Source: Megalonaias nervosa
Taxonomy: Eukaryota; Mollusca; Bivalvia; Unionida; Unionidae
Direction: 5' to 3'
Length of the DNA stretch: 64,000 nucleotides
NCBI GenBank assembly: GCA_016617855.1
Contig: JAECUM010001706.1
Location: forward strand, 37,108-101,107
Shown here: one piece after another, positions 7,491 to 53,159 of the stretch
Layout: each line of letters begins with the position of its first letter
Position numbering within the stretch: position 1 is the stretch's first letter
The notes under the pieces: model-generated
What the model was told of the DNA's origin: nothing
Database searches by the model: none
Seen by the model: the letters and a program-made list of their open reading frames with translations, nothing else
Translations under genes and position numbers: made by a program

Positions 7491-7499
7491 GTTAGTGCC

Positions 7500-8720: not shown

Positions 8721-8739
8721 GAGCGAAATCTCGGAGACT

Positions 8740-10475: not shown

Positions 10476-10479
10476 ATTA

Positions 10480-10870: not shown

Positions 10871-10944
10871 CTCTCTTTCATTATAGTACATACTTAGCAC
10901 TCTTCGATTTAACTGTTTAAAGAAACAGTGATGGATCAGATTTG

Positions 10945-29035: not shown

Positions 29036-29404
29036 GAAATTAACCCTGGGACGATTTGGCCCCACGATTTATAGGCCCAAAAGCGCACCTTGGGACGATA
29101 TGGGCCCAAGATGTATAGGTTCAAATGGCACAGCCTGGGACGATAGGGCCTTCAAGATTAATGATGGTACTGGAGATTGGTAACAATGTAGCAAGGAACT
29201 GACCTGAATACGCATGGCTACCACTCTAGGCAAAGACAAACACAATAGAAACTGAGACAGACATATACTAATACAAGCCCGAAATTTATATATAAAGCAT
29301 TACCTAGACCTGAAATTATGTTGATGGTGTTCATAAATTTGCATAATTATAATGATGCTATAAATAGTTAAAATCAAGGAAAAGACTAACGCCAAAATGG
29401 ATGT

Positions 29405-30016
29405 GACTAAAAGTAACGCTAAAATTACGATATTGTCCCAGATTTTAACGGAGACTAAACATGTCCCTGAACATTAGGTTACATTGGTTTAGACTAAAAG
29501 TAGTCCTAAAATTATGACATTGTCCCGGACTACAGTGGAGACTGAGAAAATCTAGAACATTAATATTCAAATGACTGTGACTAAAAGTAACGCTAAAATT
29601 ACGAAATTGTCCCAGAATTTAACGGAGACTGAACATATCCCAGAAGATTAAATTATATTTGTTTAGTCTAAAAGTAGTACTAAGATTACCAAAATGTCCC
29701 AAACTCTAGTGGAGACTGAGAAAAACTCCGGAAGATTGTATTCAGATTGCTGTGACTTAAAATATTGCACTAAATTTCCGAAAAATTTTGCAGACTTGAA
29801 TGGAAACTGATAACTAGCCAGATGTTTTGGTTGTCAGAAATGGCAAAGACAAAGTGTAGCACTAAATTCTGAAAATGCACCGGACTTTAGCGGAGACTGA
29901 AAAAATAAATCATAGATAAATTTTTAAAATGTTACCAAGACTTAAGGTAGTTCTGAAATTATTTAAACTCATATCGACCTTCGCGGAAACTGAAAAATTG
30001 TAAATAAAAAATTAAA
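29405..30016 (+). repeat. 87-bp tandem array inside the left ITR, seven units
   Basis: The unit consensus starts GACTAAAAGTA, continues CTAAAATTACGAAATTGTCC, and has a GGAGACTGA block in its middle. Units 1 and 3 resemble each other most, as do 2 and 4, so the older unit was probably a dimer of about 174 bp. The reverse complement is at 43250-43860. Arrays like this near termini could bind element proteins, but that is inference. Confidence 0.9.
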
Positions 30017-30200
30017 ATAAGCGATACTATAGCATCAATGGGAATTAGCATTGCGGGACCCTACTTTTTCTACTATAGCGTCAAGATTTATAGCGTCAAT
30101 GGGAATTAGCATTATGGGACCCAACTTTGTACTATAGCGTCAAGATTTAAAGCGTCAAATGGCACACCCTGGGACACTATAGCGTCAATGGGAATTTTGT
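30017..30200 (+). repeat. Inner ITR modules ACTATAGCGTC(AA)
   Basis: Four to five copies of CTATAGCGTCAA or TAAAGCGTCAA are separated by GGGAATTAGCATT and GGGACCC blocks. The stretch TCAAATGGCACACCCTGGGA reappears almost unchanged in the outer modules (TCAAATGGCACAGCCTGGGA at 29122-29141), with GGCCC there in place of GCGTC. The mirror copy is at 43055-43240. Confidence 0.85.
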
Positions 30201-30539
30201 ATGGGAACAATAGGAATGGAACAGGTAGGCCGACGTCACGGTACTGGACACTTGCAACAGAGAATAATGTTTTTGTGAGTTAAACATAAATAATATAACA
30301 GCTAAAAAAAATTTTAGGCAAGAAAGAGTAAATCTTTTTGAGGCAATGGATTGACCCATTACACATAAATTATACAACAACTAAAAAATTGTTAGGCAAG
30401 AGGGAGTAGACATCTTTTCGAGACATATGAGTGGCCCTGAATGGGGTCGTTTAGTTTTCTTCTACTTTCCTCCCTTCTTCTTCTTTACCAGCACCTCATC
30501 TTCTACAGTAAATTTTTCTTCTTTTTCTCATCCTTTCAT

Positions 30540-30765
30540 CTATTTATAGCTACAACCTGTGGAAAACCCAAGTCTATATTTAGTCTCAAACTTTTCAGCT
30601 TCAATGACGTCACTTTACTCAAAACTAGGTGAATAATGGCAACAGGCGAACACGAACGCGAATCACATTTTTCATTTAGACCTAGTATCTATTTATAGCT
30701 ACAACCTGTGGAAAATCCAAGTCTATATTTATATCCTCAAAATTTCTAGCTTCAGTGACGTCACT
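30540..30765 (-). promoter_or_regulatory. Doubled CRE + TATA promoter-like block in the left ITR
   Basis: On the minus strand each copy has TGACGTCA (30756-30763 and 30605-30612) followed about 22 bp later by TATAAATA, then CTTGGRTTTTCCACAGG and a second TATAAATAG. This matches the layout of a metazoan Pol II promoter with an ATF/CREB site. Both blocks point outwards, towards the left end. A third GACGTCAC lies at 30232-30239. The mirror is in the right ITR (42331-42560). Activity is inferred only. Confidence 0.6.
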
Positions 30766-30892
30766 GAACTGGCTGACCTGAATACGCGATACTGTAGGTA
30801 GGTAGGTAGGTAGGTAGGTAGGTGAATTGAATTTTATATGGATAAAGGGAGTTTTATAGTCACAAAAGAAAGGGAGAAAGAAAAAAAAACAA

Positions 30893-31310
30893 TATCTACT
30901 GTCCACACCAACGGACGAGAATGCATAAAACACACACCTATTTACTATCCACATCAACGTACGCGAATGCATGAAACACACGCCTATATACTATCCACAC
31001 CAACGGATGCGAATGCATAAAACACACCATACCTACTATCCACACCAATGAACGCGAAAGCATAAAACATACACACTATACTATCCACACCAACGGACGC
31101 GAATGCATAAAACACACCATACCTACTATCCACACCAACGGACGCAACAGCACAAAACATACACCTACAACGAACGAGAATGCATAAAACACACATCTAT
31201 TTACTATCCTCACCAACGAACGAGAAGGCATAAAACACATCATATTTACTATCCTCACCAACGAACACGAAAGCATAAAACATACACACTATATTATCCT
31301 CACAAACGAA
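30893..31310 (+). repeat. 46-bp minisatellite inside the left ITR
   Basis: About nine units of ACTATCCACACCAACGGACG plus CGAATGCATAAAACACAC. Cys/Val/Phe-rich ORFs on the minus strand are artefacts of the repeat. It is followed by (CA)n. Confidence 0.9.
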
Positions 31311-31317
31311 TGCGCAT

Positions 31318-31440
<123 letters not shown>

Positions 31441-31470
31441 ACAGTAAAGGAGTGAGTGTTTATAGTCACA

Positions 31471-32104
31471 CTACTCTACATTCATACCAATTGGCAACTT
31501 GAATAGTCTCTCTTTGCTAGAGGTTTGGTTAGCCGTGAGAAGGGCTGTTTTTTCTTGGAACTCCATTTGCACCTGGCTAATGGTTGCACCTACCAGGTCT
31601 GGCCCCACATACGCATCGCCGGCTCCAGTCATTCTCCCAATTGATGGGTATGGTTGGGAGTGCAGAGGAAGCTTGAGTGGCTTCACTATCCCAGTTTTCA
31701 GTGTGAGGGATAGTGAAGACTTGTTCCCTCTGTCTTCTCCTATGCCAGACCCGGGGATGATTTTGCTGAAGCTGAGGCTCCCACTCTTGCCGCTGTCTCT
31801 CCAACTCCTCCAAGGCCTCTTGCTCCCAGTTTTCTGTCTGGAGGACAGCGGCTCTTGGTACAGGTTGTGGCTGTGGCTGTAGTTGTGGATGTAGTTGAGG
31901 AGGCCGTACTGGTTGTGCAGGTGTCCTCACCTCAGGTTTGACCTCACACTGAGGTCTCATCAAGAGGTGAGGCAGGATCCCTCTTTTCTTTTCTTTCTCT
32001 TCTTCCTTCTTCTTTTCTCTCTCTTCTTCTTTTAACCTGGCTTCCTCCTGTGCAGCCTCCATAGCCAGCTCATCCAGGAGACGCCTGGCATGCTCCAGGT
32101 GCAT
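31471..32104 (-). pseudogene. Coiled-coil protein, last gene of the element, one frameshift
   Basis: Function unknown. From the ATG at 32104-32102 the frame encodes a highly charged N-terminus (RRLLDELAMEAAQEEARLKE, then an E/K run) that looks like a coiled coil. It continues as a Pro/Gln-rich linker and a segment with ENWEQEALEELERQRQEWEP. Near 31640 the reading shifts; the next frame continues GDAYVGPDLVGATISQVQME and FKLPIGMNVE and stops at 31471. An upstream ATG at 32140 is followed by a stop at codon 5, so it is not the start. A promoter block with the palindrome GTTGACTAGTCAAC lies at 32148-32161. Could be a scaffold or virion accessory protein. Confidence 0.6.
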
Positions 32105-32147
32105 CTGGAGTTCCAACAGTTTTTATAGTCTGCTCATCTTCTTTTTA

Positions 32148-32235
32148 AGTTGACTAGTCAACAATGGTAGCCAGACTGACGAGTGCTCTGCTTTATATTC
32201 CTGGAGCACGAACGTGAAGGAAAACATCCCCTGGC
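32148..32235 (-). promoter_or_regulatory. Class-2 promoter-like block, copy 1
   Basis: On the minus strand one reads GGGATGTTTTCC, then AATATAAAGCAGAG, then CAGTCTGGCTACCATT, then the perfect palindrome GTTGACTAGTCAAC. The same four blocks, in the same order and spacing, lie upstream of the neighbouring gene at 32934-33013. It differs from the plain TATAAAA motif before most other genes of the element. Confidence 0.7.
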
Positions 32236-32549
32236 ACCAAAACTTACCATAACCAAAAACAAAACATCAAACGCGCGGACCTAAAAGAAACACTCACGTT
32301 GACTTTTTTACTTTTTACTTTTTACTTACAAACACAGACATGCACGATTTGACAAGACAGAGAAAACAAAGGGTGGATTTTTTACTGACAAAAGAAACGA
32401 AGTGCTTATAGACACACTTCTATTTATTTTTTAAAGACACAAACACAAATTTGTTTTGGCAAATTGAATTAGTAACTCTTTTCTAGAGTATTTGGGTAGC
32501 CCTGAAAAGGGCTGTTTATTTTGTTAACGGGAGTGATGGCAAGCTTTTT

Positions 32550-33011
32550 TTACTGTCTAGGATTGCGTCCCCGTCTGGCAGCAGGCTTTTCTATACGATA
32601 CGGTCTGCTTCTGCGGAAAGAGAAGGAGAACTCTTTGGTGTCCACACGGCAGTCGACAAAAGCTCTGTCTGGTTCTTGCTGCTGCTGCTGCTGCTGCTGT
32701 TACTGCTGTTGTTGTTGCAGTTCTCTCTGCTTCTGAAGTCTGCACTTCTCTGTCCATTCTTCTTGTTCTTTCTTGATTTCCTCTCTGAAGACCTCTTCTA
32801 TCAGGTCTTGGACTATGGCTAACATCCTGACATTCTCTATTTCTTCAGGCTTAGGTATCAGGTTTAACCTGACACGATGTAAATTGACGTAAGCTTTGTT
32901 CAGCTTCGCTAGTCTGGAAGGCATGTTCATAGGTTGACGAGTCAACAGTGGATGACCAGACTGGAGACCAACCCGCTTATATGGTTCAAACGCGGACGCG
33001 ATAGAAAACAT
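32550..33011 (-). pseudogene. Poly-Gln protein with an in-frame stop
   Basis: Function unknown. The most likely start is the ATG of MNMPSRLAKLNKAYVNLHR (about 32930), downstream of the TATA-like CATATAAGCG and the GTTGAC palindrome. A start at 33011 would overlap that promoter. The frame holds helical charged sequence (LIEEVFREEIKKEQEEWTEK) and a run of Gln codons. A TAA at 32700-32702 interrupts the Gln run. In the same frame the Gln codons then resume and lead to a basic tail (FRRSRPYRIEKPAARRGR) ending at 32550. The stop may be a single CAA-to-TAA change in a repeat-prone tract. Confidence 0.6.
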
Positions 33012-33013
33012 CC
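32934..33013 (-). promoter_or_regulatory. Class-2 promoter-like block, copy 2
   Basis: On the minus strand one reads GGGATGTTTTC, CATATAAGCGGG, CCAGTCTGGTCATCCAC and GTTGACTCGTCAAC. It is a near twin of the block at 32148-32235, one palindrome base changed. The Met codon MNMPS follows immediately. Confidence 0.7.
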
Positions 33014-33202
33014 CTACTCGGTTTTAGTGTCGGAACGTTATGAGAGCGAATGTCATGGTGAGGGATAGGGAGAAAGTCAAAGAGCATATATTCAGTGTGT
33101 TTTGAAAACAGACCCATTTTGTTTTTCAAAACACAACATTTTTTTTTATTCAACCAACAATCAACTACTAACCATTAACAAGTAACAATAACATCAAACA
33201 CA

Positions 33203-33752
33203 TTATTTTGGACAAGGTTGACAACGTTGTGAAATCATGTGAGATTTCCATTGATGGAAGTCATGAGGCCATTGATGTACACTACGTTTCCTAGCTAAAG
33301 ACAAAAGATAGCCATAATGGTCACAAAACCATCGATCTACTTTCTCATCGTTTCTAGAAGAGTTACTATCAAAATAAGTCATTAAATGTTCTAAAGGATA
33401 TCCAAGACTGCGTTGATGAAGAAAATACACACAATATTGTCCACACACCATGGAATCTGTGCCTTGTAATTTCACATTATTATATCTGGGCATTTCTTCT
33501 CATAAAGTCAATGATGTCGTCTTCCAAAGGGGGTAATCCATACGAATCCAAATACTCCACACAAGTCTCTTGAGGGAAGTAGACGGCAACCCAGTGAGTT
33601 TCTGGGAGATGACTTTCGTCCGTGTTGATGACATAAGCTTGATGGTCTTGAGGTTTACGATGAGGTAGTTCATCTTTAGCGCACACGACAGGATTCCAAG
33701 ACGCAGTGTACGAACTATTGTTCAAAAGGTAATAAAGTTCCTAGGTATCCAT
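33203..33752 (-). pseudogene. Adenain/Ulp1-type cysteine protease, broken
   Basis: In Polintons this enzyme is thought to mature virion proteins, as adenain does in adenoviruses. The ATG at 33752-33750 is followed by TAG at codon 4 (33743-33741). The same frame then carries the catalytic His in THWVAVYF and Asp in YLDSYG. Near 33490 a frameshift moves the remainder into another frame. That frame has the Gln of LQG and, seven residues later, the nucleophile Cys in MVCGQYC, the adenain spacing. About 183 codons in all, close to the family size. All catalytic positions survive but no single frame has them all, so the locus cannot make the enzyme as read here. Confidence 0.9.
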
Positions 33753-33777
33753 TTTTTTTGTGGTGTTGTTTCTTTTT

Positions 33778-34261
33778 TCACAGGTAATGATAAGTCATCA
33801 ATTCAATTCTGACTTTTTGTTTGAAACGCTCTGTCAAGTAGCCGTTTCTTCGCTTCGTCTCCGCACTCTGGGCTAAGAGAGATTCGATGCGATAGATCTC
33901 TAGAGTAGACAATGGTGGGCAGGAATGATCACGCAAGCCTTTATACCACTCATGCAACACTGCTTCTTCCGAGATGAGACTCCAAGCGTCGTCCAGATAC
34001 TCGTCCAATTTTTCTTCTTGACTCATTATCAGACATTTATCGTATTGAATTTGACTGGGATGATCGTTTTGACATCCATAACAATATTTCTTGGTCAATT
34101 CCGTAATTGTATCCGCCAGGTGTTTGTTCTTGTTCTGGCCATCTGGACTTGACTACTACCTCGTCCTCTTTGTCTTGGTCTTGGGGCTCTGTTTTCACGC
34201 TATCCTCCCATTCCATGTCCAAAGATTCTCTATCGTTCAATGAGGGATAGGAGTCTTCCAT
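33778..34261 (-). pseudogene. Small acidic protein with CYGC motif, one frameshift
   Basis: The upstream frame starts MEDSYPSLNDRESLDMEWED and is very acidic. Between about 34140 and 34170 the reading shifts to the frame with LTKKYCYGCQNDHPSQIQY and a conserved-looking tail that ends at 33778 (FKQKVRIELMTYHYL). A protein with Cys-X2-Cys plus HPSQ is a regular neighbour of Polinton capsid genes. Its role is unknown; the Cys/His set suggests metal binding. It sits directly between the capsid and protease genes, 6 bp from the capsid stop, as in relic 1. Confidence 0.75.
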
Positions 34262-34266
34262 TGTTT

Positions 34267-35587
34267 CTAATAGTCTAGAATGACTTCTCTCAAACTGTTG
34301 ATTTCAATGGTATTATTGAATTCGGCATACAAGATGACGTTGACCGTCTCGGTGAGAGCTTCTGCAAAATGAAATTCCACACGCAGTTGACCAGATTTTA
34401 TAGGGTGGAAATGTCCCTCGTCGCTGCCTTGGTCTGGAGTGAAATCAAAGGCCCACAAAGTGTAACCTCCTACATAATCTTCGTCCGAAATACCATGACT
34501 GGTGTTGGTTCCTAATTGTCCGGTAGCTTCGTACAGGGACAAGTACAATCTCAAGTAATTCTTCTGGGCAAATTTAGGTTCGAAGGGTCTGGTACACAAA
34601 GTCTTGCCATCGCGACTGACTTCGATCTTGGACACTCTGTAGTGCTTGAACTGGAAAGGATTTTGATCGTAGGCTCCGTTGAGGGCTGCATTACTGACGA
34701 TGCCAACGATTAAACGTTTGGGTAACTGTCCTTGGAACAGATGATCTTCGATCTTGGATCGGAGTCCAGCAGAAATGGTGAATGTTCTCACTTCTACGCG
34801 TCGTATCGGATACTTGGCGGTCGATCTGCTCAATGTTTGACTTGATGTCGTTTCCCGCTTTAGGTAACACTTCTGAGCGACGCACGTGAAGTCTGGCTTC
34901 TTGGATGATGGTTTTGTACTCGTTGGCATGAGCCATCAAATGGAAAGCGACACTGCTGCGATTGAGTCTCAGACGAATATCCACTCCGTTCAGCAAATAC
35001 TTGTCTTGCAACCACATGTCCAAATGCAAACGATCCATCATTTCTAAATTACAACCTTGCAGAATTTTCCTTCGACGGTCGTTAAAACCCACATTGTGAG
35101 GATTGTCATCGGCTGTCATGGCTGTGTCGTTAAACGTGTCTTCACCTGCGGTGTCAGGTTTCCATACCACACAAGCATCCAGATGAGTGTTCTTGGCCTC
35201 TTTTCCGTACGTCAAGAGATTTTCTAGGTACGCTCGGTAAGGGTAAGTATCCATACTGCTGCTGACCAGTTTTGTATTCAAGTACAAATCCCCTTCGCTG
35301 AACAAGGAATGCATGATATTGTTGACGGGAGCTACTCTGGCATCGGCTCCCGGATTGGTGTTGTCTGTTTTGATCACTTTCAGTTTCAGATACAAGTAAC
35401 TGCTATTCAGATCGATGTAATCTTCGGGTTGTCCTTTGATTTCAAACTCGATGGGAGCTGAGTACGTCAAAGAGGAGACGGGATGAAATTCGACCCATTG
35501 GGATTCTTGCATTGTCATCATGGTGGGTGGCATGGCAAACAGATCCAGTTCCGACTTGGAACAGGCACGAGACTCTCGGTGCATCAT
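34267..35587 (-). pseudogene. Major capsid protein (hexon-like, double jelly-roll type), one frameshift
   Basis: Would form the shell of the icosahedral particle. The start is placed at MMHRESRACSKSELDLFAMP (35587); an ATG at 35614 would overlap the upstream gene. The first frame has SQWVEFHPVSSLTYSAPIEF, DYIDLNSSYLYLKLKV, a loop with TYPYRAYLENLLTYG and RLHLDMWLQDKYLLNGVDIR. These are hallmarks of the metazoan F54H12.2-like family, regarded as Polinton capsid proteins. Near 34800-34830 a one-base shift moves the rest into a second frame. It carries VEVRTFTISAGLRSKIEDHL and WAFDFTPDQGSDEGHFHPIK and ends SLREVILDY at 34267. Total length about 440 residues, as expected. Confidence 0.92.
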
Positions 35588-35597
35588 TTTCTCTGAT

Positions 35598-36038
35598 TTA
35601 ATAATCAAAAACATCTAACTCTCGGACAGTTTTTCTTTTCTTAGTCTTTCTAGCTCTAGGGGTGTGAAGTCCTCTGAAGGGGTGTTTTCGTCGTCTTTTT
35701 CTGCCTTGTCCTTGCTGTGGCATCAGGGAAGCAGGAATGTCTGACTCGGCATTGCCCAGGGCATTTATAGGAGTTTCTCGCCGGCCCAAAATGTCTTTTC
35801 CCGTTTGAAGCAAGACATTTTTGCCTGCTCTCAAGAAAGCTTCTTTGGGGTTTTATTTGTCAATGATGACATTTTGGAGAAATTCTTTCCCGTGCGTCAA
35901 CGCGGCATCTTTCAAGGCGTGCAATCCCCGTGTCACCATCGGTTTCAAAACGGGGGCCACTGTACGAAAGGCTGATTTGAGCATATCTCCTAAACCATGT
36001 CCTCGCTGTCGAGCGACTCCTTGGTACACAGGATACAT
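35598..36038 (-). pseudogene. pX/pVI-like basic virion protein with an in-frame stop
   Basis: Starts MYPVYQGVARQRGHGLGDML at the ATG 36038-36036. A Gly-rich amphipathic stretch (LKSAFRTVAPVLKPMV) resembles membrane-active or core proteins of adenovirus type. A TAA at 35855-35853 interrupts the frame after about 61 codons. The same frame continues with FLRAGKNVLLQTGKDILGRR and a very basic GRKRRRKHPF...RKTKKRKT tail, ending at 35598. The gene lies between penton-like and major capsid genes, the usual Polinton position, and its end overlaps the unlikely upstream ATG of the capsid gene. Confidence 0.75.
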
Positions 36039-36126
36039 GACTAACAAAAGGTTAGAGTAATCGTTTTCGAAAATGCAGTTTCACTGTGACTTTCCCTTTG
36101 GTGAATGGAATATTTTGTCCCAGATC

Positions 36127-36963
36127 TCATTTTTTAGTAATGTTGACAGTGTCGAAATACGACTTACTGACGGACAAATAGTGAGGATGTACAAATTCGC
36201 GGTGAACGTGATAGGTGTTTCCACCTTCCTCGTCAGCAGCCGCGGCAGAATCCACTTTGAATGGAATGACACGCAGTAACGGTACGGAGGTGTGTCCCAC
36301 CACGTTGTACTCCGCCACATCGGAGTACACAAAAATCAAATTCAGTCCTTGGTTCATTTCTACAGGGAATCTAAAATATTTCGCAAAATCCAAGTTGCCA
36401 GTAATGGCTGGTATTTCGTTTTTCATCTTGATCAGCTTGGTGTCTCCACCTAAAATATCATACAGTTCAGGACAAAATGTAATGGCCAATACTTTGTCCT
36501 CTGAAAATTTCATCATTAGACGACGAGCTATTTTGTGATACTCGAGGGTGATACTTTTTCTGGTTCTCTCCAATGCTTTGGCAAACACAGCATTGAATTT
36601 GATAGAAATCGTGTTCACCAAATGTTGACCACTAAAATAATAACCTGCAGGAATGGTCAACAGATAGGTGAATCGTTTAGTTTTGGGGTCTTGTGATTTC
36701 ATAGAGTCAGCTACACTGCTACGTTCATCCAAGTGTTGTTGCACTTGTTCGTCATTAACTTCTACCCTAAAAGTGTTTTGATTTTCAACGATGTTTTTGA
36801 TTTGTGTAGCGCGAATCATTTCCACTAAAGCCACTTCCCAAGGGGCTTCGTGATCCAATTGGATGGCCTGAGGTAATTTGGCCCTGTAACAGCATCAGGT
36901 GTTATTGGAAAAGACCTCCATATAACTGTCACTGGGTAACGTTAAGTAAAATTGGTTGTTCAT
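36127..36963 (-). pseudogene. Penton-like minor capsid protein with early TGA
   Basis: Would occupy the vertices of the particle. The ATG at 36963-36961 opens a frame with FYLTLPSDSYMEVFSNN, a typical start for the Polinton minor capsid protein. A TGA at 36897-36895 (codon 23) follows. The same frame then continues with KLPQAIQLDHEAPWEVALVE, KRFTYLLTIPAGYYFSGQHL and the C-terminal half with VEMNQGLNLIFVYSDVAEYN and PLLRVIPF, ending at 36127. About 278 codons. Only that one lesion is seen. The stop could be a recent mutation; readthrough is less likely. It lies directly after the two-helix membrane protein and before the pX-like gene. Confidence 0.85.
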
Positions 36964-37364
36964 AATTCCACAGTTCTAGTGTCCGAGGAGTCACTGGAAG
37001 TCAGAGGAGTGTCTAAAAGAGGATGGTTAGGGTGATTGTTGGAAGGGGGACTAACGTTGGACACAAGACTCCCGTTGTTGTTTCCGTTGGAGGAATATTT
37101 CAGAGACGGATTGGAAAGAAGGAAACCAATGCAACTGCTAAGTAAAATGGTCCACAATTGTTTGTCTCCTTGTTGCAAACTCAGATTGGCAATGGCAGCA
37201 CCGATGACACAATACACCACAAAGATTTGGCAGAAAAAGACGATTTGCGTTTTAGGCACACGTTCTCCATACCAGACCCACAAGGATTGCTTTTGTAGAT
37301 CTTGCAGAGAAGAACTGGGGGAAGGAGTGGTCACTGTAGTAGCTGAGGGTGTGTTGAAGGGCAT
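36960..37364 (-). CDS. Small two-helix membrane protein
   Basis: About 134 residues from MPFNTPSATTVT (ATG at 37364-37362). The N-terminus is Ser/Thr/Pro-rich. Two hydrophobic segments follow, at about residues 36-55 (FFCQIFVVYCVIGAAIANL) and 68-81 (LWTILLSSCIGFLL), with a polar Asn/Ser-rich tail. Role unknown; a protein of this shape sits between integrase and penton in both this element and relic 1. A TATAAAA motif at 37377-37383, over the end of the integrase gene, may be its promoter. Its stop overlaps the penton ATG by four bases. No lesion is seen. Confidence 0.75.
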   Translation of the reverse strand: MPFNTPSATTVTTPSPSSSLQDLQKQSLWVWYGERVPKTQIVFFCQIFVVYCVIGAAIANLSLQQGDKQLWTILLSSCIGFLLSNPSLKYSSNGNNNGSLVSNVSPPSNNHPNHPLLDTPLTSSDSSDTRTVEL

Positions 37365-37369
37365 GATGA

Positions 37370-38693
37370 TCACTTCTTTTTATAGTCAATGAGTTGCGAA
37401 GCGTCGATCCAAGAGTCAAAACTGGGAGGATATCCTTTCCAACGCACTTTGACTTCTTTGACACGTCGTTTTCCCACTTTTCGGGTTCTTCGACCGAGAA
37501 TGCTTTCGATCTCGTACACGTCGTCTTCTTTTTTGGTCACACGTTGTAACTCGGGCAAGTAAAATGTTCCTTTTAACACTTCCCCGTTCATGTCTTCCAA
37601 TTTATAGACAGGAGGATAACGGCCACGCACTCGTTCAGTGACACGAAACAATTCGGTGGTCCAGCTGGGTAAGTAACCTTTGTCGAAAGTGCGTTTTGGT
37701 TTTGCCAATGCGTACGCAATCTCCTGATGCCAACACTCCACCTTTCTTGGGGACAGTCACTGTTGGGGACGTACCAAACAGACGCTCGAAGACGGCCACT
37801 TCGTTGTCAGCAGTCACTTCTTGGGGGGCACGTCCGATGCTCCGATGGAAAGATTGGTTGTACGATTGGACGAGGTGTGGCAAGACGTCGATGTACTTGA
37901 AAGTGTGTTGATGCGTAAAATATTTCCACATGCATTCTTTCAAGGTACGTTGAAAACGTTCCACGATGCTGGCTTTGGTTTCTGGATTCTCGGTGGTAAA
38001 AAAATGTAAGTCACATTTCTTCAATTCTTTTTGGAAAGCTTGGTTCAGAAATTCGGTACCTTTGTCAGTTTGCCATCGAAGAGGGTGGCGCCCACTTTGT
38101 TTCAACACCAGTTGGAGGGCTCGCACTAACTCACTGCTCGATTTGGAAGTCAATGGCTCGACCCAAACAAATTTTGGAAAAGACGTCGATGACACAACAC
38201 AAATATTTGTAACCACGATTGTAGGTGGCCAAATGAGAGACATCGGCTAAATCGGCTTGCCATTGATGATCGATGCCTTCCACTCGGGTGAGACTTCTGG
38301 AAAATTTTCGTCGAATGGGTTTTTGTAAGGTGTACGTGGCTTGTTCTTGTAACCAGCGTAGCACTTGAGGTGAACGAACACTTTTCAGTCGAGTTTTGGC
38401 AGCACGATACAATTTCTGAACTCCTCCGTAACCTGCGGAATGGGATGGATCGTAGTAAATGCTGGCTAACAACTTCTCCACTTTTTTTTTTAAATAAGTG
38501 ATCCACTCTTCGCTGATGGTACTCTGAAGTGGTTTAGAAACGGCCTCACGTGTCCGATGTGCCACAGGAGTAGAAGTCGAAGGTAGTTTTGGTGATAGTG
38601 GTGGTGGTGGTAATGGAATGGCTTTGGTCTTCTTTTTTTCACTTCTGCTTTCCCTTCTTTCTTTTTCACTTCTGTCGAAGGTGGAGTGGACAT
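37370..38693 (-). pseudogene. Retrovirus-like DDE integrase with C-terminal chromodomain, frameshifted
   Basis: Catalyses insertion of the element. The ATG at 38693 opens MSTPPSTEVKKKEGKAEVKK; a shift near 38650 leads into the main frame. That frame has IYYDPSHSAGYGGVQKLYRA (N-terminal domain) and WQADLADVSHLA with the first Asp. A second shift at about 38165-38190 leads to WQTDKGTEFLN (second Asp) and ETKASIVERFQRTLKE (the Glu). A third near 37680-37705 leads to FRVTERVRGRYPPVYKLED and a chromodomain, YEIESILGRR...VRWKGYPPSFDSWI, ending at 37370. All DDE residues are intact but in different frames. This integrase type is shared by Polintons, Ginger transposons and Gypsy elements. Confidence 0.92.
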
Positions 38694-38699
38694 AATCTT

Positions 38700-39164
38700 T
38701 TAAACCCAAGCTTTAAGTTCTCGTTGCGGTGTAGGGGAAGGGGTCAACAAGGACGCTGCAATCTTACTGGGGATGGGAGCTGCTGACGGTGTTTGAAAGA
38801 CTTCTCTTGCCTCTTCTTACTCAAGCAGCCGTGGGGCTGAATCTGTCTTGACCACTGGGAGTGGTAGTGGTTGTGGTGGTGAACTTTTCATCAGGGCCTT
38901 AAAATCTTTCAGAGTGGGTAGAGCTGTTTCGTCTAAAGCTTTCTGGTGAAAGAGTTGCAGTCGTTGCAACAATTGACCGTACCGTTACGATTTTTCCGTT
39001 TCTGACAAATCGCTGCGATCCATCAAGGATTGCAATTCGTGTTGTAACTGGGACATCTCGGTCAAATGAGGATTGGGAGGTAAATGTGGGGTCCATTGTT
39101 CTTGCCAACGATGGTATTCCATCCATCGTTTGTAAGGCACTAAAGCTAGTTTTCGTCCTTCCAT
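38700..39164 (-). pseudogene. Polinton accessory protein, two in-frame stops
   Basis: The ATG at 39164-39162 opens MEGRKLALVPYKRWMEYHRW, followed by a helical charged region (LTEMSQLQHELQSLMDRSDL). Two stops in frame (38987-38985 and 38819-38817) interrupt it; the frame ends at 38700, seven bases before the integrase ATG. Proteins starting with a LVPYxKY-like motif and this helical pattern recur beside Polinton capsid genes in invertebrates; their function is unknown to me. Two ATAAAAG-type motifs lie upstream at 39211-39217 and 39229-39235. Confidence 0.65.
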
Positions 39165-39236
39165 TGGATTTCAAGGATCACGTCTGAGATCTTTTGACTC
39201 CAGAGGTCCCTTTTATCTTCTTGGATCTTTTTATCT

Positions 39237-39691
39237 TCATCCTCCCAGGATGTTTCCCAATAGTCCTTTCAGCAAGGGTGCTCCTATTGTTCCCATTACT
39301 CCTTTCAGTAAGGGTCCTCCTATTGTGCCCATTACTCCTTTCAGTAACATGGGGGAAAAAGGAAAAATTCCTCCGCGTTGCACCAACATCTTTTTCTTTT
39401 GACCAATGGGTATTTTCTTTTGGACCGTTTGGCGAAGAACGTGTCGATGTTTGGCTAAGAATTCTTTCTGGTGTTTAGACAAAGGTATCGTGCCTTTCAA
39501 GACATTCAGACAACATTCGCACACGGTATCGATGACGTCTTTGGAGGCAGTTTGAATGAGTTTTTTTCGCATGGGTGGAGGAGCTTTGGACAGGACGGAC
39601 AACATGTCCCAATGTTTGGCTAACGAGGTGGCAGTCCTTTCCTTTTCCTTCCTTTGGGGGTAGAAGAGGAACGTCTTTTTGGGGGTGACAT
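39237..39691 (-). pseudogene. Basic helical protein, paralogue 2 (CLNVLKG family), one frameshift
   Basis: The ATG at 39691-39689 starts MSPPKRRSSSTPKGRKRKG, a Lys/Arg-rich leader. That frame stops at 39620. A shift between 39622 and 39660 leads into the frame with LAKHWDMLSVLSKAPPPMRK, ECCLNVLKGTIPLSKHQKEF and KKKMLVQRGGIFPF. It ends with three repeats of LLKG(V/L)(M/L)G(T/N)I, stopping at 39237. This helical protein with a KKK-hVQRGG motif is a common companion of Polinton capsid genes; function unknown, perhaps DNA or core binding. It is related to the gene at 40564-41073. Confidence 0.75.
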
Positions 39692-39787
39692 CTTTCTCGG
39701 TTGGTTCGTTGGTTCCGTGGCACACAGCAAAAAAAAATCCACTAACGTCGATGACTTGTCACACGGTCTTTTATCCATTTTTGGGGA

Positions 39788-39985
39788 CTATCGCTTCGTC
39801 ATAAATGTGACGATGTGTTTTCCAAAATCACCAAAGAATCCTCCTCTTTGGTGGCTCCTCTTTTTCTTTGGACAAGTGTGTCTTTTCTGGGGGTGACGTC
39901 TATTTTTGGCTAAGCGATTTTTTGGTTGATGAAACTGTCCTTTTCTTTTTCCTTTTTGGACATTAGAACGACGATGAGGAGACAT
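39788..39985 (-). CDS. Short Arg/Lys-rich protein, copy A
   Basis: 65 residues from MSPHRRSNVQKGKRKGQFHQ (ATG 39985-39983), ending with QRGGFFGDFGKHI. It matches the leader and the QRGG region of paralogue 2 with the helical middle missing, so it looks like an internally deleted duplicate. An ATAAAAG motif lies upstream (40033-40039). It could encode a protamine-like DNA-binding peptide, or be just a duplication relic. Confidence 0.5.
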   Translation of the reverse strand: MSPHRRSNVQKGKRKGQFHQPKNRLAKNRRHPQKRHTCPKKKRSHQRGGFFGDFGKHIVTFMTKR

Positions 39986-40086
39986 CTTTTGATGCACAAC
40001 ATACACTAAAGTCCATGGCTTGACATGTGTCCTTTTATCTTATTTTGGCTAGTGGTCATAGATTTAAATAGATTTAAGAGTTTTGA

Positions 40087-40290
40087 TCATGTGTGGTAAT
40101 AAAAGACTAGGAAACCATCCTCCTCTTTGGTGACTTCTTCTTTTCTTTCAACGAGTGTGTCTTTTCTGGGGTGACGTCGATGTTTGACTAAGTGTTTCTT
40201 TGGATGACGAGACTGTCCTTTTCTTTTTCCTTTTCCTTTTTGGACAGAAGAACGACGATGGTGACGGTGTGCACTTCCTGGTGGGGACAT
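40087..40290 (-). CDS. Short Arg/Lys-rich protein, copy B
   Basis: 67 residues, MSPPGSAHRHHRRSSVQKGK then KGKRKGQSRHPKKHLVKHRR. Closely related to copy A in both leader and spacing. The Gly-Gly of the QRGG motif is lost and the C-terminus is changed. A TATAAAA box at 40344-40350 precedes it by about 55 bases. It is either the element's condensing protein or decaying duplicate DNA. Confidence 0.5.
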   Translation of the reverse strand: MSPPGSAHRHHRRSSVQKGKGKRKGQSRHPKKHLVKHRRHPRKDTLVERKEEVTKEEDGFLVFYYHT

Positions 40291-40433
40291 CTTTGGGCGT
40301 TCAGGAGCACAACAACACTAAACCTATCGTTTGCCTCAGGTCTTTTTATACTAGAATGCGTCGCCTCTGATTGTCTTTACGTCGTATCAACTTGATGTCA
40401 GGCATCACACGTCTTGAAGGAGTTCGCAACGGA

Positions 40434-41073
40434 CTAAATCGGGACAGTTCTTGCTTGGACAAATCTAGTAAACTCTATAACACACCCGTTCTCTCTTGGA
40501 CTTTGATTTTGGGGGCAGGTACTTTGTGAGCAGCGGCCACTGCCGCTAAAGAGGAAGAGGGTGTCACCGCTGAGGAGAATTTTTTGGAGACGCTCTCTTG
40601 CGGGTAGAAGCTGTTTTCTGTGGACTTTTCTTTTTCTTTTTCTGAGGCTGTGACCTGGTCTTGACACCGTTGCTTTTTTTCCTTTTCTTCTGGGTACGTT
40701 TGGGCGTGGCTTTTTTCTTGGGCAGAACTTTGGGAGCATTGGGATCCCATTTTAAGAGGGAAGGAATGATGACACCTCCTAGAGAACCGCTTCTTCCAGG
40801 TTTCAAAATGATTTGCTTTTTGGTTTGAGTGTCAGTGCGAGAATCGGATAACTGCGTCAAGGCTACTTTGTTTCTCTCAAACAAACGTTTGGTTTGATGT
40901 GGAATCTGAATGATGCCTTGTAGTAATCGACGTGCTGTCACCGTAAACCATCGTAAGACTTTTTTGAGACTAGCTTCTAAGACACGAGCACGTATTTGTG
41001 CATTGTTTTCGCGACTGATACCGTACAAGGCACGAATCATTTTCATGGGAAGATGAGACTGAAGGGACGTCAT
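40434..41073 (-). pseudogene. Basic helical protein, paralogue 1 (CLNVLKG family), C-terminal frameshift
   Basis: The start is the ATG at 41073-41071 (MTSLQSHLPMKMIRALYGIS), 40 bases after a TATAAAA box at 41112-41118. Residues 50-110, with RRLLQGIIQIPHQTKRLFER and KKQIILKPGRSGSLGG, align with ECCLNVLKGTIPLSKHQKEF and KKKMLVQRGG of the gene at 39237-39691, so the two are paralogues. A Lys-rich tail follows. This frame ends at 40564. Another frame carries on with SSAVTPSSSLAAVAAAHKVP and ends near 40475, so the true C-terminus was probably longer. Function unknown; probably a virion core or DNA-binding protein. Confidence 0.65.
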
Positions 41074-41138
41074 GTTGACGATGTGTGAGACAGAGCCAAA
41101 GTGACCGAGGTTTTTATAGACTTTTTTGGTGATTGTGA

Positions 41139-41870
41139 TTAAGTCGACGAAGGGGACGTGTACACGACAGGCCCTCCGTCTTGGCACCAGTGGTGAAACA
41201 GATGGGTACGAAATCGCAAATAATCGGGAGTGGTGGGTTTTAAATCCACGAGTAAATAAGCGTGTGGGGTTTGAGTGGCATCGTCGTACGCATGAGTCAG
41301 CCAAGGTGTTCCTAACTGTTTGGCTACGACTTGCACTTGCGATTTATCTCTAGGGCTGTTAAACAACACCACGTAATGAGCATTGAGACTGATGGTACGA
41401 TGGGCTTTACTTTGTTGAAACAAATTTTGAGTAATGTAAATGATGACACTGGCATTACGATGATGCCCTTTGCGCGTAAACCAGAGTTTAGTTTCTTCTT
41501 CGTCTTCTCCTAACATGTCGTCAAAAATAACCAGATGGGTTTGACTAGGGTCAGACACGATCCCGTCATATTCGCCAGGAATGCCTTCCACAAAGATGAT
41601 GGAATCGCCTTGACTTTCTCGCAGAAGGCTGTACGTCGATTGCCACTCTTTGTAACACCAAACGATTCGTTGAGGTGGACGATCGATCAAATGATGTTTA
41701 TGTTCGATCAAACGTTTGACAAATTCGGTTTTGCCTGAACCGCTAGGTCCGGCAATGAGCATGTTAAAGGATTGGCGAAGATACAAGGCCTCCCAACTAG
41801 TCCCATCCACGTGTTCGTCAATGACTTTGACAGTGGAGGAAGAGGGAGCAGAAACAGTAGAGGTAGCCAT
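41139..41870 (-). CDS. FtsK/HerA-type genome-packaging ATPase (A32-like), intact
   Basis: Would pump the element's DNA into the capsid. The 243-residue frame is complete from MATSTVSAPSSSTVKVIDEH. Walker A is GPSGSGKT (about residues 41-48) and Walker B is HLVIFDDML (about 111-119). A sensor-like stretch VIIYITQN follows at about 141-148. This matches the A32-like packaging ATPases of Polintons and poxviruses in motif and size. It is the first large gene of the element and the only hallmark gene here with no lesion. A TATAAAA box lies about 50 bases upstream (41921-41927). Its 3' end runs on into the spacer before the next gene. Confidence 0.93.
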   Translation of the reverse strand: MATSTVSAPSSSTVKVIDEHVDGTSWEALYLRQSFNMLIAGPSGSGKTEFVKRLIEHKHHLIDRPPQRIVWCYKEWQSTYSLLRESQGDSIIFVEGIPGEYDGIVSDPSQTHLVIFDDMLGEDEEETKLWFTRKGHHRNASVIIYITQNLFQQSKAHRTISLNAHYVVLFNSPRDKSQVQVVAKQLGTPWLTHAYDDATQTPHAYLLVDLKPTTPDYLRFRTHLFHHWCQDGGPVVYTSPSST

Positions 41871-41920
41871 AGTAGTGCAAGAAATGTCACTTTTGACACG
41901 AGGACAGAAAAGACAAGAGT

Positions 41921-41927
41921 TTTTATA
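41921..41927 (-). promoter_or_regulatory. Class-1 TATAAAA promoter motif before the ATPase (one of about eight)
   Basis: On the minus strand, AAAAAAGTATAAAAACTC. Similar ATAAAA(A/G) motifs precede other genes at 42241-42247, 41112-41118 (AAAAAAGTCTATAAAAACC), 40344-40350, 40033-40039, 39769-39775, 39211-39217 and 37377-37383, mostly 40-80 bases before the ATG. The repeated placement supports separate promoters for each gene. They are absent before penton, pX-like and capsid genes, which may share an upstream one. Confidence 0.6.
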
Positions 41928-41956
41928 CTTTTTTCAGCACACGTTTATTGTCATCT

Positions 41957-42200
41957 TTAATTGTGAACAACACGAAAGACAAAAATACATATAATCCAAA
42001 TGGTTAAGTACATGAATATAAGACACATCAAAACGATCATAGTGGAATATAAACAAGTCTCTGTACAACATTTGTGGGGATCAAGAGGTGGAATTGTAGG
42101 GACAGTGTGTAATGTTCTTAGAGTCTCTACACTCCTTGGCACAGTCACACAAGTGCCTTCCCGGAATGGTCTTTCGGGGATGTCGATAACTGTCCTGTCC
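41957..42200 (-). CDS. Possible small single-span membrane protein at the right end
   Basis: An open frame on the minus strand ends at 41957 with a hydrophobic segment (STMIVLMCLIFMYLTIWIIC) and a short basic tail. Upstream it is Pro-rich and has a CCTETC cluster. No ATG is found until inside the hydrophobic part; an alternative GTG lies at 42148. A TATAAAA motif at 42241-42247 lies just inside the ITR edge. Either the start codon is mutated or this is chance. Single-span proteins at this place occur in some relatives, so it is listed as tentative. Confidence 0.35.
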
Positions 42201-42259
42201 TGTCCTGAAGGGAGTGGTTCTTCTGGGAGTGGTAGTCCGTTTTTATACTTCTTTTTATT

Positions 42260-44219
42260 AAATTCAATTCACCTACCTACCTACCTACCTACCTACCTAC
42301 AGTATCGCTTATTCAGGTCAGCCAGTTCAGTGACGTCACTGAAGCTAGAAATTTTGAGGATATAAATATAGACTTGGGTTTTCCACAGGTTGTAGCTATA
42401 AATAGATACTAGGTCTAAATGAAAAATGTGATTCGCGTTCGTGTTCGTCTGTTGCCATTATTCACCTAGTTTTGAGTAAAGTGACGTCATTGAAGCTGAA
42501 AAGTTTGAGACTATAAATATAGACTTGGGTTTTCCACAGGTTGTAGCTATAAATAGATGAAAGGATGAGAAAAAGAAGAAAAATGTACTGTAGAAGATGA
42601 GGTGCTGGTGAAGAAGAAGAAGGGAGGAAAGTAGAAGAAAACTAAACGACCCCATTCAGGGCCACTCATATGTCTCGAAAAGATGTCTACTCCCTCTTGC
42701 CTAACAATTTTTAGTTGTTGTATAATTTATATGTAATGGCTCAATCCATTGCCTCAAAAAGATTTACTCTTTCTTGCCTAAAAAATTTTTAGTTGTTATA
42801 TAATTTATGTTTAACTCACAAAAACATTATTTATGTCTCGAAAAGATGTCTACTCTCTCTTGCCTAAAATTTTTAGTTGTTGTATAATTTATGTGTAATG
42901 GGTCAATCCATTGCCTCAAAAAGATTTACTCTTTCTTGCCTAAAATTTTTTTTAGCTGTTATATTATTTATGTTTAACTCACAAAAACATTATTCTCTGT
43001 TGCAAGTGTCCAGTACCGTGACGTCACCCTACCTGTTCCATTCCTATTGTTCCCATACAAAATTCCCATTGACGCTATAGTGTCCCAGGGTGTGCCATTT
43101 GACGCTTTAAATCTTGACGCTATAGTACAAAGTTGGGTCCCATAATGCTAATTCCCATTGACACTATAAATCTTGACGCTATAGTAGAAAAAGTAGGGTC
43201 CCGCAATGCTAATTCCCATTGATGCTATAGTATCGCTTATTTTAATTTTTTATTTACAATTTTTCAGTTTCCGCGAAGGTCGATATGAGTTTAAATAATT
43301 TCAGTACTACCTTAAGTCTTGGTAACATTTTAAAAATTTATCTATGGATTATTTTTAGTCTCCGCTAAAGTTCGGTGCAATTTCAGAATTTAGTGCTACA
43401 CTTTGTCTTTGCCATTTCTGACAACCAAAACATCTGGCTAGTTATCAGTTTCCATTCAAGTCCGCAAAATTTTTCGGAAATTTAGTGCAATATTTTAAGT
43501 CACAGCAATCTGAATACAATCTTCCGGAGTTTTTCTCAGTCTCCACTAGAGTTTGGGACATTTTGGTAATCTTAGTACTACTTTTAGACTAAACAAATAT
43601 AATTTAATCTTCTGGGATATGTTCAGTCTCCGTTAAATTCTGGGACAATTTCGTAATTTTAGCGTTACTTTTAGTCACAGTCATTTGAATATTAATGTTC
43701 TAGATTTTCTCAGTCTCCACTGTAGTCCGGGACAATGTCATAATTTTAGGACTACTTTTAGTCTAAACCAATGTAACCTAATGTTCAGGGACATGTTTAG
43801 TCTCCGTTAAAATCTGGGACAATATCGTAATTTTAGCGTTACTTTTAGTCACATCCATTTTGGCGTTAGTCTTTTCCTTGATTTTAACTATTTATAGCAT
43901 CATTATAATTATGCAAATTTATGAACACCGTCAACATAATTTCAGGTCTAGGTAATGCTTTATATATAAATCTCGAACTTGTATTAGTATATGTCTGTCT
44001 CAGTTTCTATTGTGTTTGTCTCTGCCTAGGGTGGTCGTCACGCTTATTCAGGTCAGTTCCTTGCTACATTGTTACCAATCTCCAGTACCATCATTAATCT
44101 TGAAGGCCCTATCGTCCCAGGCTGTGCCATTTGGACCTATACATCTTGGGCCCATATCGTCCCAGGGTGTGCTTTTGGGCCTCTAAATCGTGGGGCCAAA
44201 TCGTCCCAGGGTTAATTTC
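42260..44219 (-). repeat. Right inverted terminal repeat of the Polinton (1.96 kb)
   Basis: Reverse complement of 29036-30834. It holds in mirrored order (CCTA)n at 42271-42300, the doubled CRE/TATA block (42331-42560), a unit of about 170 bp present twice (42660-42830 and 42832-43000) but once on the left, ACTATAGCGTC modules (43055-43240), the 87-bp array (43250-43860) and CCTGGGACGAT modules (44090-44219). Small ORFs in both arms are identical by descent from the repeat and not evidence of genes. Confidence 0.95.
42331..42560 (+). promoter_or_regulatory. Doubled CRE + TATA promoter-like block in the right ITR
   Basis: TGACGTCA at 42331-42338 is followed by TATAAATA at 42361-42368. TGACGTCA at 42482-42489 is followed by TATAAATA at 42512-42519. 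The spacing is the same in both (22 bp between). Each is followed by GACTTGGGTTTTCCACAGG and a second TATAAATAG. A third CRE lies at 43019-43026. They point outwards to the right end. One CRE is part of the 12-bp palindrome AGTGACGTCACT. Confidence 0.6.
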
Positions 44220-44460
44220 CTTCTTTGGGCTCATGAGGGCCAAATCATCCCCTATTACTACTGATACATTCACATATACATAAATATACATTCACAACGT
44301 ACATATACAGTCACACATATATACATACATATATACAAACACACATACATGCATGTACATTCACACATACATACATATACATTCACGCATAGATGCATAT
44401 ACATTTACACATACAGAGATACAAACAAACATACATAAACAGATACATATAATAACGAAT
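44220..44460. repeat. Possible end remnant, then TACATTCACACA-like satellite
   Basis: 44220-44263 continues the GGGCC...ATC module style of the right ITR (GAGGGCCAAATCATCCCC) but has no left counterpart. From 44265 the same satellite as at 28944-29035 follows. From 44460 to 46820 I see nothing beyond chance ORFs. Confidence 0.65.
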
Positions 44461-50779: not shown

Positions 50780-51326
50780 CAGCTAATACAAGCAGGCGTT
50801 ATACCAAAAAAAATATTACTTGAGATCTTACTGGACTCAGTTTTAAGCCACGGGATAATTGGAGAACAAGAGTACTCACGTCATTTCTTTATGACAACTG
50901 CGCATGTGGGAGTTTGATTTACGTTAGACAAAGGCAGTGACGAGGAACATTTCCATCCTAAATAAATAAGGACAACTCCGTGTGGAACTTCAGTTTGCAC
51001 AAGCCCTCGAAAACACAGTAAATGTCATGTTTTGCGGAATTGGACACTAACCTGAACGCAGCTGTGTAAGACAAGCGGTCTTGTACTATTTAAAAAAAAA
51101 TAGAGCACGAAACCATGGATATAAATAATGATCAAGAAGAGGAACCACGGCAATCTCAGATACAACCTCATCGTGGCGGTCAAGCAAAACCCAGTTGACT
51201 CACTATGGCCAGCACTTTAACAACCCTTAGTATCCTCTCTTTGCAGAAAGAAACATGCTAACAGTGTTGGGGTTATAAAATCGAACATCCTAGTCAGGTA
51301 CAATAAGACAAATGTTTAATGATGAG
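50780..51326 (+). pseudogene. Polinton relic 2: major capsid C-terminus and start of the next gene
   Basis: Frames include FTLDKGSDEEHFHPK (about 50918-50965) and AQALENTVNVMFCGI (about 50995-51040). They match DFTPDQGSDEGHFHPIKSG and AEALTETVNVILYAE of the capsid gene at 34267-35587. Further on, MDINNDQEEEPRQSQIQPHR (from 51115) fits an acidic start for the next small gene, then the 51327 insertion follows. Dead; frames change every 60-120 bases. Confidence 0.75.
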
Positions 51327-52644
51327 TGTTACGTGTAGGCTCGTACAAATGTAACAAAAGAAAAAAGTGAAGTCAACAAGCTTTGCAAATTTTAACAAAA
51401 TAATTTATTTCCCTAGAAAACAAGGTAAAAATATGAAATAGGACTTACGGTTTGTGAAAATAATCCAAAAATTTATCCTAGAATTGAAAACTATAAGTTC
51501 TATCACTAAACAGTTCTAATTGAATCCAGGTTCGAATCTCTGTGAAGTTCCAATATGGAAGGCGATGACGTCAGATGAGGTCGTTGTACAGATGGCAACA
51601 GTTCCTCTTTGAAACACAATTTTTAATGTTCTGTTTAGAATTCCAGAATAAATTTCCACTGAATATCTTTGTCCCAGAAATTTTATAAAGAAATGCACTT
51701 GTTTTGTTTTCTAGAGAATATGAATTATTAAATCCCAAAACAATAGATGAACTTCAGAAAAAAACTGACATCAACAATATAAACCTCTTGAGCCCTCAAG
51801 GTTTAAAATACGACTGCCTAAATCTACTAGAGAGCGTCTGTTTAAAGCCGAGATTTTAGATCACATGGTGGCTCACGTGACGGGCTATGTGATCATTAAT
51901 TTGAACATCGCAGTAAAAAAAAAAAAATGCCAATTATCACGTAAGCAAGAATAGAACTAAGAATCAGATTCATTGTCAAGAATCAGAAACACTTGTGTGT
52001 TCCTTAGTACTTTCAAGGCTGGACTACTGTAACTCAATTCTGTCTGGTTCGTCTCAATATCTACTCCAGAAACTTCAAAAAGTTCAAAACACAGCTTCTC
52101 GGATCATCCTTAGAGTACCACGATCAGAGCACGCCTCCCCCCTGCTCTGTACCCTACACTGGCTATCCATTCGATCCAGAATTAAACACAAAATTTGTTC
52201 TCTGTGCTACGTTTCACTGACGGGCTCCAGTCCAACATACCTATCTGACCTCACCCATGTGTATACACCAGCAAGATACTTACGCCCCTCTTCTGACACT
52301 CGTATTCTCATTATTCCCACTATGAAAATGAAATCGTATGGACAACGTTCTTTTGCATACCAGGGCCCAGCAACGTGGAACGAATTGCCCACTGAACTTA
52401 GACACAAAGACACAGTGATCTCATTAAAGAACGCTCTTAAAACTCCCCTATTTCAACTTCAAGAACAGACTTAATGACGTAATAATGTTTCCTTACCTTA
52501 AATATTTACAGCATGTTTTCTGTTTTCTAATTTCATGGTGTTTGTTTTTATTTTTGTAATCATATCATTATATATGATTTTTAAAGTGTTGTCAAATGTT
52601 GTAAAGCGCTTAGAGCTTCTAAAGATTAGACGCTATACAAAGTC

Positions 52645-52678
<34 letters not shown>

Positions 52679-52984
52679 CCACACTGGAATAAATTAAAAA
52701 AGTAAGGCTGTTTACAATTCAGCTAACACTTGGGGCGAACATGACCTTGGTAATAGCCAATCATTTTCGCTTATTGTTTACAAAACGTCTCAACCAAGGT
52801 GAGCGAAAAATAATAATAATGTAATACCTTTTACGTTCAAATCAGGTCAAAACAGAGAAATGATTTTTCGAAAATAGTCAAATCCCGTGAAAATTATCAT
52901 TATAATAAAATGTAATGAAACAAAAATGAAATAAAAAAGAACTTAAAACTAACACACAAGTAATTAAATTATATGTACGTAACA
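51327..52984. mobile_element. TGTTACG element copy 3, with nested LINE
   Basis: Ends TGTTACGTGTAGG and GTACGTAACA with TGAG on both sides (51323-51326 and 52985-52988). Apart from the LINE insert (51990-52676) it corresponds end to end with copy 1. A TGACGTCA site is at about 51566. It interrupts the Polinton relic between the capsid and protease remnants. Confidence 0.9.
51990..52676 (+). pseudogene. CR1-like LINE 3' fragment nested in the TGTTACG element
   Basis: The best-preserved non-LTR fragment. A 159-residue open frame (51995-52474) has LDYCNSILSGSSQYLLQKLQ, CTLHWLSIRSRIKHKICSLC, YLSDLTHVYTPARYLRPSSD and RSFAYQGPATWNELPTELRH, the standard region after the reverse transcriptase core in CR1/L2-like elements. 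An untranslated end follows, with AAAGCGCTTAGAGCTTCTAA, and an (ATT)n tail at 52648-52676. It is 5'-truncated, as is usual. The minus-strand copy at 1132-2990 belongs to the same family. Confidence 0.92.
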
Positions 52985-53159
52985 TGAGTCAAGAAAGCAG
53001 TTGGAAAAATATCCACAAGAAGGAAGGACCCTCATCCATAAAAAGATCATGAAAGAGTTGTATTAAGACTTGAGAAAGCATTGACTCACTTGCAGACAAA
53101 TCACATCGAAGCACTCTTGTAAAGGAGTAACGATACTTCTGAATCTTCTACTTACATGA

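Follow-up and report, generated by a model that had tools for sequence, protein, structure and literature searches.

The stretch of Megalonaias nervosa DNA analysed here (64,000 nucleotides of contig JAECUM010001706.1, called the window in the following) carries at positions 29036-44262 a Polinton-type element whose gene-bearing interior is enclosed by inverted repeats of ~1.8 and ~2.0 kb, and in which no gene for DNA polymerase B (PolB) is found. Comparison with relatives in the same genome (2.19 Gb, 54,709 contigs) suggests that this copy is likely a degraded representative of a Polinton sublineage without PolB, whose ancestor lost the gene and which then amplified, probably with PolB provided in trans by complete relatives.

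The two arms of the repeats (29036-30838 and 42256-44219) are 98-99% complementary and form terminal inverted repeats (ITRs) of the Polinton type. The right ITR extends beyond 44219 to the terminus at 44262, and the truncated left ITR is without its outermost ~43 nt. A 163-bp unit occurs twice within the right ITR (42669-42994); the left ITR falls short of the right one by roughly the length of this unit. The recognised genes all lie on the minus strand and comprise an ATPase, basic open reading frames (ORFs), an integrase, a penton, a major capsid protein (MCP), a protease-like gene and two Glu/Gln-rich ORFs. The features are given below, with reference to other copies of the element in the genome (sister copies) where these support the reading.

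29036-30838, no strand: left ITR (protease side), outermost ~43 nt gone, with an abrupt stop in the flanking ACAT-type repeat
30882-31440, no strand: 45-bp minisatellite together with an (AC)n run, both original to the protease-side end (same place in a PolB-bearing copy, L037)
31580-32122, minus: Glu-rich ORF, matched in sister copies
32560-33023, minus: ORF with a Gln tract, split across two frames (read from the frames and sister copies)
33206-34152, minus: adenain-like protease gene with an N-terminal extension, broken into several frames (at least two); 331-aa frame in a sister
34270-35614, minus: MCP, predicted double jelly roll (DJR), split across two frames here and unbroken (448 aa) in two sisters
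35601-36080, minus: basic ORF adjoining the MCP gene, with one in-frame stop
36130-36894, minus: predicted minor capsid (penton) protein (mCP); an 80% identical mCP matches the mavirus penton
36963-37379, minus: short ORF with a hydrophobic stretch, as judged by eye
37373-38712, minus: RVE integrase with a C-terminal chromodomain, in three frames; single 370-aa frame in L035
38902-40317, minus: basic ORFs, including one at 39240-39758 that we take to resemble Polinton PX
40567-41343, minus: basic Lys-rich ORF
41142-41933, minus: A32-type packaging ATPase, frame intact, with 333 homologues
41960-42256, minus: small ORF beside the lost polymerase region; DNA homology to the PolB-bearing copy C53981 stops at 42227
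42256-42257, no strand: scar at the place of the lost PolB-IAP end; sisters hold ~170 bp of an IAP-gene 3' remnant plus the minisatellite, both lost from the window copy
42257-44262, no strand: right ITR, which apparently duplicates the protease-side end in inverted orientation and reaches to the terminus AGTAGTAATAGGGG

The assignment of these genes rests on evidence of different kinds. In the Pfam scan the ATPase matches Pox_A32 (PF04665) at 30.4 bits against a cut-off of 22.8. Because the integrase gene is broken, its two rve pieces in the window reach 24.6 and 18.7 bits, below the cut-off of 32.6; the chromodomain scores 37.9 bits (cut-off 25.1), and the single 370-aa frame of the relative L035 passes the rve cut-off with 53 bits. 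The MCP and mCP frames match no Pfam family over its cut-off, and a PDB sequence search with the MCP frame gave no match. A database MCP shares 91% identity with the window frame across 82% of that frame; its predicted model (pLDDT 83.7) has a fold resembling those of the MCPs of PBCV-1, Sputnik and mavirus (E about 1e-15), and judged by the model of this relative the window MCP is a DJR major capsid protein. The mCP is likewise a predicted penton through its 80% identical relative, whose weak model (pLDDT 64) matches the mavirus penton at an E value of 2.3e-7 with a TM score of only about 0.3. The 331-aa protease-like frame of a sister gives 17 bits to Peptidase_C5, under the cut-off of 21.3. 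Several ORFs of the element have no convincing family match, and no replicase family (including PolA-S3H and AEP-S3H) passed its cut-off among the 20 frames scanned with Pfam, 10 of which were also scanned with PHROGs, some small frames and profile-profile comparison lying outside the scan. Viral contigs searched for context gave no match.

An earlier note on this DNA had described ITRs enclosing an integrase, an A32 ATPase, MCP, mCP and a protease on one strand, and this description is borne out, the protease at a sub-threshold level only. Its further statement that the packaging set is full and "without any scar" does not hold: the MCP lies in two frames, the integrase in three and the protease in at least two, the left terminus is truncated, and a loss junction is present at 42256.

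The lost polymerase and its junction

A 971-aa C-terminal stretch of PolB from the same genome, which gives 147.8 bits to PF03175, was used as the tblastn query against the window. The best match (E=0.088, at 50241) lies outside the element, in agreement with the absence of PolB claimed earlier. The outer 868 bp of the ITR yielded 43 matches on 32 contigs when the best 40 of 2,397 candidates in the genome were scored. The question whether other copies with the same ITRs carry PolB, raised in the earlier note, could be answered for nine of them: intact PolB is absent from all nine. They are all colinear with the window, with pieces 75-96% identical and private deletions in each copy. Their unaligned stretches of at least 250 bp lie at the outer edges of the pieces, in the flanks, with a single internal case in C384; C2451 has 3.9 kb unaligned past a shortened ITR, and C20055 has 3.5 kb of N.

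C384 is also the sole copy matched by PolB in tblastn against all 18 sister pieces. Its internal case is a 2.2-kb insert between the minisatellite and the ATPase, formed by a PolB 3' stub (235 bp, 88.5% identity) followed by an IAP gene, the latter identified through its homologue at a PolB locus, where BIR scores 63.6 bits. The insert was considered as a new polymerase, and this was rejected on its content. Two other candidates failed likewise. The added length of longer sisters (17 kb), in which PolB might have been hidden, is minisatellite, and the 4.2 kb between the ITR and the PolB stub in C53246, taken as a candidate complete copy with a long ITR, is filled by minisatellite and protease-side genes. 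This locus (L062, C53246:2000-6100) is heavily rearranged, with an ITR, a minisatellite, protease-side genes, a second minisatellite and the PolB stub junction. In C5169 (L021 start, L022 end) the flanks beyond the terminus are inverted copies of each other, representing either an assembly palindrome or a longer ITR.

Alignment to related full elements, suggested earlier as the way to a deletion junction, did reveal one: DNA homology between C53981 and the window ends at 42227, close to the start of the window ITR at 42256. A DNA query spanning 41600-42250 recovered 20 loci, the window and 19 others, from the best 40 of 3,807 candidates scored. Among the 19, L053 and L061 are the already examined C31324 and C11536, L055/L056 and L059/L060 are nearly identical pairs, and L044 (C26675), to judge by its agreeing flanks, probably represents the same insertion as C31324. 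At all 19 loci the sequence past ~42256 is a remnant of the IAP region (130-173 bp, 89-96%), and minisatellite or ITR comes next. Measured on the PolB-side locus L017, the remnant starts at 4187-4188 in 15 of the 19, at 4198-4200 in three (two of which have the same join in the printed sequence) and at 4232 in one. The join falls, by eye, within a short CAACGAA-like stretch common to the minisatellite unit and the IAP region. In the window copy the remnant and the minisatellite are gone as well, through a private secondary deletion at 42256. C384 and C53246 belong to another class, in which the minisatellite is joined to the PolB 3' stub; at least seven contigs among the scored matches hold both the ITR and the PolB stub, and the joins were examined in these two.

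Since all nine sisters are without intact PolB and all 19 loci have the same kind of join, the loss appears to be ancestral and the PolB-less lineage to have amplified afterwards. By these alignments PolB was lost in an ancestor through a deletion with a clear junction, and not in the window copy. In the PolB-less copies the minisatellite, whose native place is the protease-side end, is found in inverted orientation at either end, so that a copy of the opposite end has apparently taken the place of the polymerase-side end. The data fit one event and two steps equally. The earlier alternative of a deletion in this copy or a lineage dependent on another polymerase was thus partly right on its first side, a deletion being evident but placed in the ancestor.

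PolB-bearing relatives in the same genome

When the genome was searched with PF03175 and the best 75 of 12,983 candidates were scored, 150 matches fell on 75 loci; in 43 of these an open frame is 1,360 aa or longer. Four pairwise comparisons among four of the PolB loci gave identities of 96.6-97.9%, and the many open and nearly identical genes, as far as these four loci represent them, probably reflect a large recent burst of complete Polintons. The gene order, combined from several partly read loci, is terminus, Glu-rich ORF, CCHC ORF, PolB, IAP and ATPase, then further on integrase, MCP, minisatellite and terminus. C34627 runs from the terminus through the Glu-rich ORF, CCHC ORF and PolB to IAP, where the contig stops, and in two further ATPase loci (L040, L041) the IAP region adjoins the ATPase. 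An IAP (BIR) gene is carried beside PolB in this family at L017:2650-4168, L032:2940-3537 and L031:3-488.

C53981 spans about 21 kb. On its polymerase side the terminus at 152737 is followed by the Glu-rich ORF, the CCHC ORF and PolB matches; beyond an unread stretch, the ATPase to the integrase are colinear with the window (89.3 and 91.5%), a 1-kb MCP piece is 94% identical, and the protease-side end carries the minisatellite, with the other terminus near 173760. Its ITRs are about 0.43-0.49 kb and 83.6% alike. Sisters with PolB at the junction, which the earlier note had named as evidence against its own reading, come close to being found: the 3' stub lies within the shared ITRs in C384 and C53246, and the gene itself occupies the corresponding position in C53981, the ITRs of which differ.

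AGTAGTAATAGGGG is present at 10 of 13 window-type element ends and has a single mismatch at the other three, the window left end being missing. Two PolB-bearing left ends have the same 14-nt terminus and diverge soon after it.

Spread of the sublineage and rival explanations

Three observations point to amplification of the PolB-less copies. Among the seven sisters with both ends, inspected by eye, perfect 6-bp target-site duplications (TSDs) flank C22850, C11536, C52777 and C24071, and TSDs matching at 5 of 6 positions flank C31324 and C384; none was seen at C5169, where the same flank is inverted on both sides. In all seven copies compared, one of them the window copy, each ITR has its nearest match in its partner at the other end (97.3-99.9%, against 94.0-97.7% between copies), and in C384 the pair is 99.9% alike despite the absent MCP. 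Over 14 gene pieces, variants shared by at least two copies number 88.6 synonymous (S) and 84.4 nonsynonymous (N), and singletons 314.3 S and 718.7 N, which corresponds to N/S ratios of 0.95 and 2.29 (Fisher P 1.3e-7). Shared variants are less often amino-acid-changing; therefore most genes were under selection during the spread and decayed after insertion. In a tree of the ATPase region (0.9 kb), 26 PolB-less sequences with the IAP junction average 95.4% mutually and 92.0% to C53981, and the internal branches are very short and star-like.

We propose that one or two template switches or recombinations, by way of short CAACGAA-like homology between the minisatellite and the PolB/IAP region, may have replaced the polymerase-side end with an inverted copy of the protease-side end, comprising the minisatellite and a long ITR. 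The PolB-less lineage would then have amplified, leaving the 6-bp TSDs, the per-copy homogenisation of ITRs and the signal of purifying selection. PolB would be supplied in trans by complete elements that share the terminal sequence, the common 14 nt serving as a minimal origin. Movement with enzymes from elsewhere is indicated indirectly, by the common terminus, the common join and the number of copies. The lineage that the earlier note had favoured is thus supported in its amplification and contradicted in the supposed absence of a scar, and its dependence on another polymerase would take the form of this supply.

Several observations weigh against this scheme, in which the supply in trans is no more than probable. 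No direct PolB-bearing parent with a long ITR was found among the best-scoring candidates of each genome search. The intact-PolB family, which is not the direct parent, has short ITRs that are mostly different beyond the 14 nt; its divergence from the sublineage amounts to ~8% for the ATPase region and ~12% for the PolB stub. C53981 shows no TSD, its other end reads AGTAGT and then differs, and the termini of C384, C24071 and C5169 differ after AGTAGT or similar. Three of the 14 gene pieces give no selection signal, namely u40570 (0 S, 3 N shared), u33781 (3.0 against 3.2) and the integrase piece 37641-38003 (1.42 against 1.32). Two copies with the IAP-class join, C24071 and C5169, are set off in the tree from the rest of that class, C384 taking an intermediate place (supports 0.80-0.94); such a split is unexpected under a single founder without recombination and could stem from recombination among copies or from repeated events.

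This split also bears on the reading that complete copies with the same ITR and PolB still exist as a source, the PolB-less copies being repeated deletion products and no self-sustaining sublineage. The two junction classes (IAP 3' and PolB 3') point in the same direction, as they suggest at least two deletion events or steps, and every genome search scored only its best candidates. Within these scored parts, the 75 PolB contigs have no member in common with the 32 long-ITR, 40 junction or 40 stub contigs, and copies that are otherwise ~5% diverged have their joins within a few bases of one another, which makes repeated deletion improbable. Somewhat less improbable, but still unlikely, is a lineage independent of PolB that uses host replication or repair enzymes, or an unrecognised replicase among the ORFs of no known function. 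It would agree with the amplification, the selected genes and the several ORFs without a convincing match; the scan of the frames described above returned no replicase family, the terminus is common to PolB-bearing left ends, and many open PolB frames exist in the same genome. That the window holds a dead single copy with a private PolB deletion, with nothing at the level of a lineage, is scarcely credible: the broken frames and the private secondary deletion at 42256 would suit it, and the PolB loss common to nine of nine sisters and 19 of 19 junction loci rules out a deletion confined to one copy.

Two other relics of Polintons lie on the plus strand of the window. A second and much older one at 7142-11118 has the same gene order (PX-like, integrase, MCP, protease) with 28-60% aa identity in tblastn. 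A third at 50802-53756 comprises an MCP end and a protease, with a fragment resembling the reverse transcriptase of long interspersed nuclear elements at 51917-52471, as seen by eye.

Relation to known systems and significance

Polintons are defined by carrying their own polymerase, PolB, and adintoviruses by PolB together with integrase. The element shares with Polintons/Mavericks (polintoviruses) the RVE-chromo integrase, A32 ATPase, DJR MCP, penton, ITRs, 6-bp TSD (in sisters) and a protease-like gene; unlike them, it is without PolB and has ITRs of about 2 kb that both apparently derive from the protease-side end. With adintoviruses it has in common the capsid and integrase genes and an animal-type genome, and unlike them it is without PolB. 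We class the element as a Polinton derivative without PolB that is probably non-autonomous, and not as a Polinton proper. In adenovirus- and poxvirus-type terminal duplications one end is replaced by an inverted copy of the other and the ITRs are lengthened; the end replacement is the same here, in an integrated and amplified lineage.

Many Polinton-like viruses and virophages are without a protein-primed PolB (PMC11071308; PMC12220804). The capsid module is shared with them; theirs are other replicases, none of which is recognised in the element, and unlike them the element is near to a family of PolB-carrying Polintons within the same genome. Like non-autonomous transposons moved in trans (as defined in PMC6431247), it is a deletion derivative with cis-acting ends that survived the loss of the enzyme, and unlike these it has capsid and packaging genes that were kept under selection. 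No account of PolB-less or non-autonomous Polintons was evident among the matches listed in a literature search, subscription literature being mostly outside its reach.

The sublineage would be a gene-rich, capsid-encoding satellite of its own family, satellite-like but born by deletion. It is possible, and we advance it only tentatively, that the genome holds a stable helper-satellite pair, in which a capsid-encoding Polinton gave up its polymerase for good, rebuilt its replication end from the opposite one, and is replicated and perhaps packaged into particles at the cost of complete Polintons. A PolB-less sublineage spreading with selected capsid genes means that replication is uncoupled from packaging in Polintons, and it illustrates how ITRs are rebuilt from one end. 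It also offers a natural test of whether a protein-primed PolB acts in trans and which terminal bases are needed, and may represent a route from a self-synthesising element to a satellite virus.

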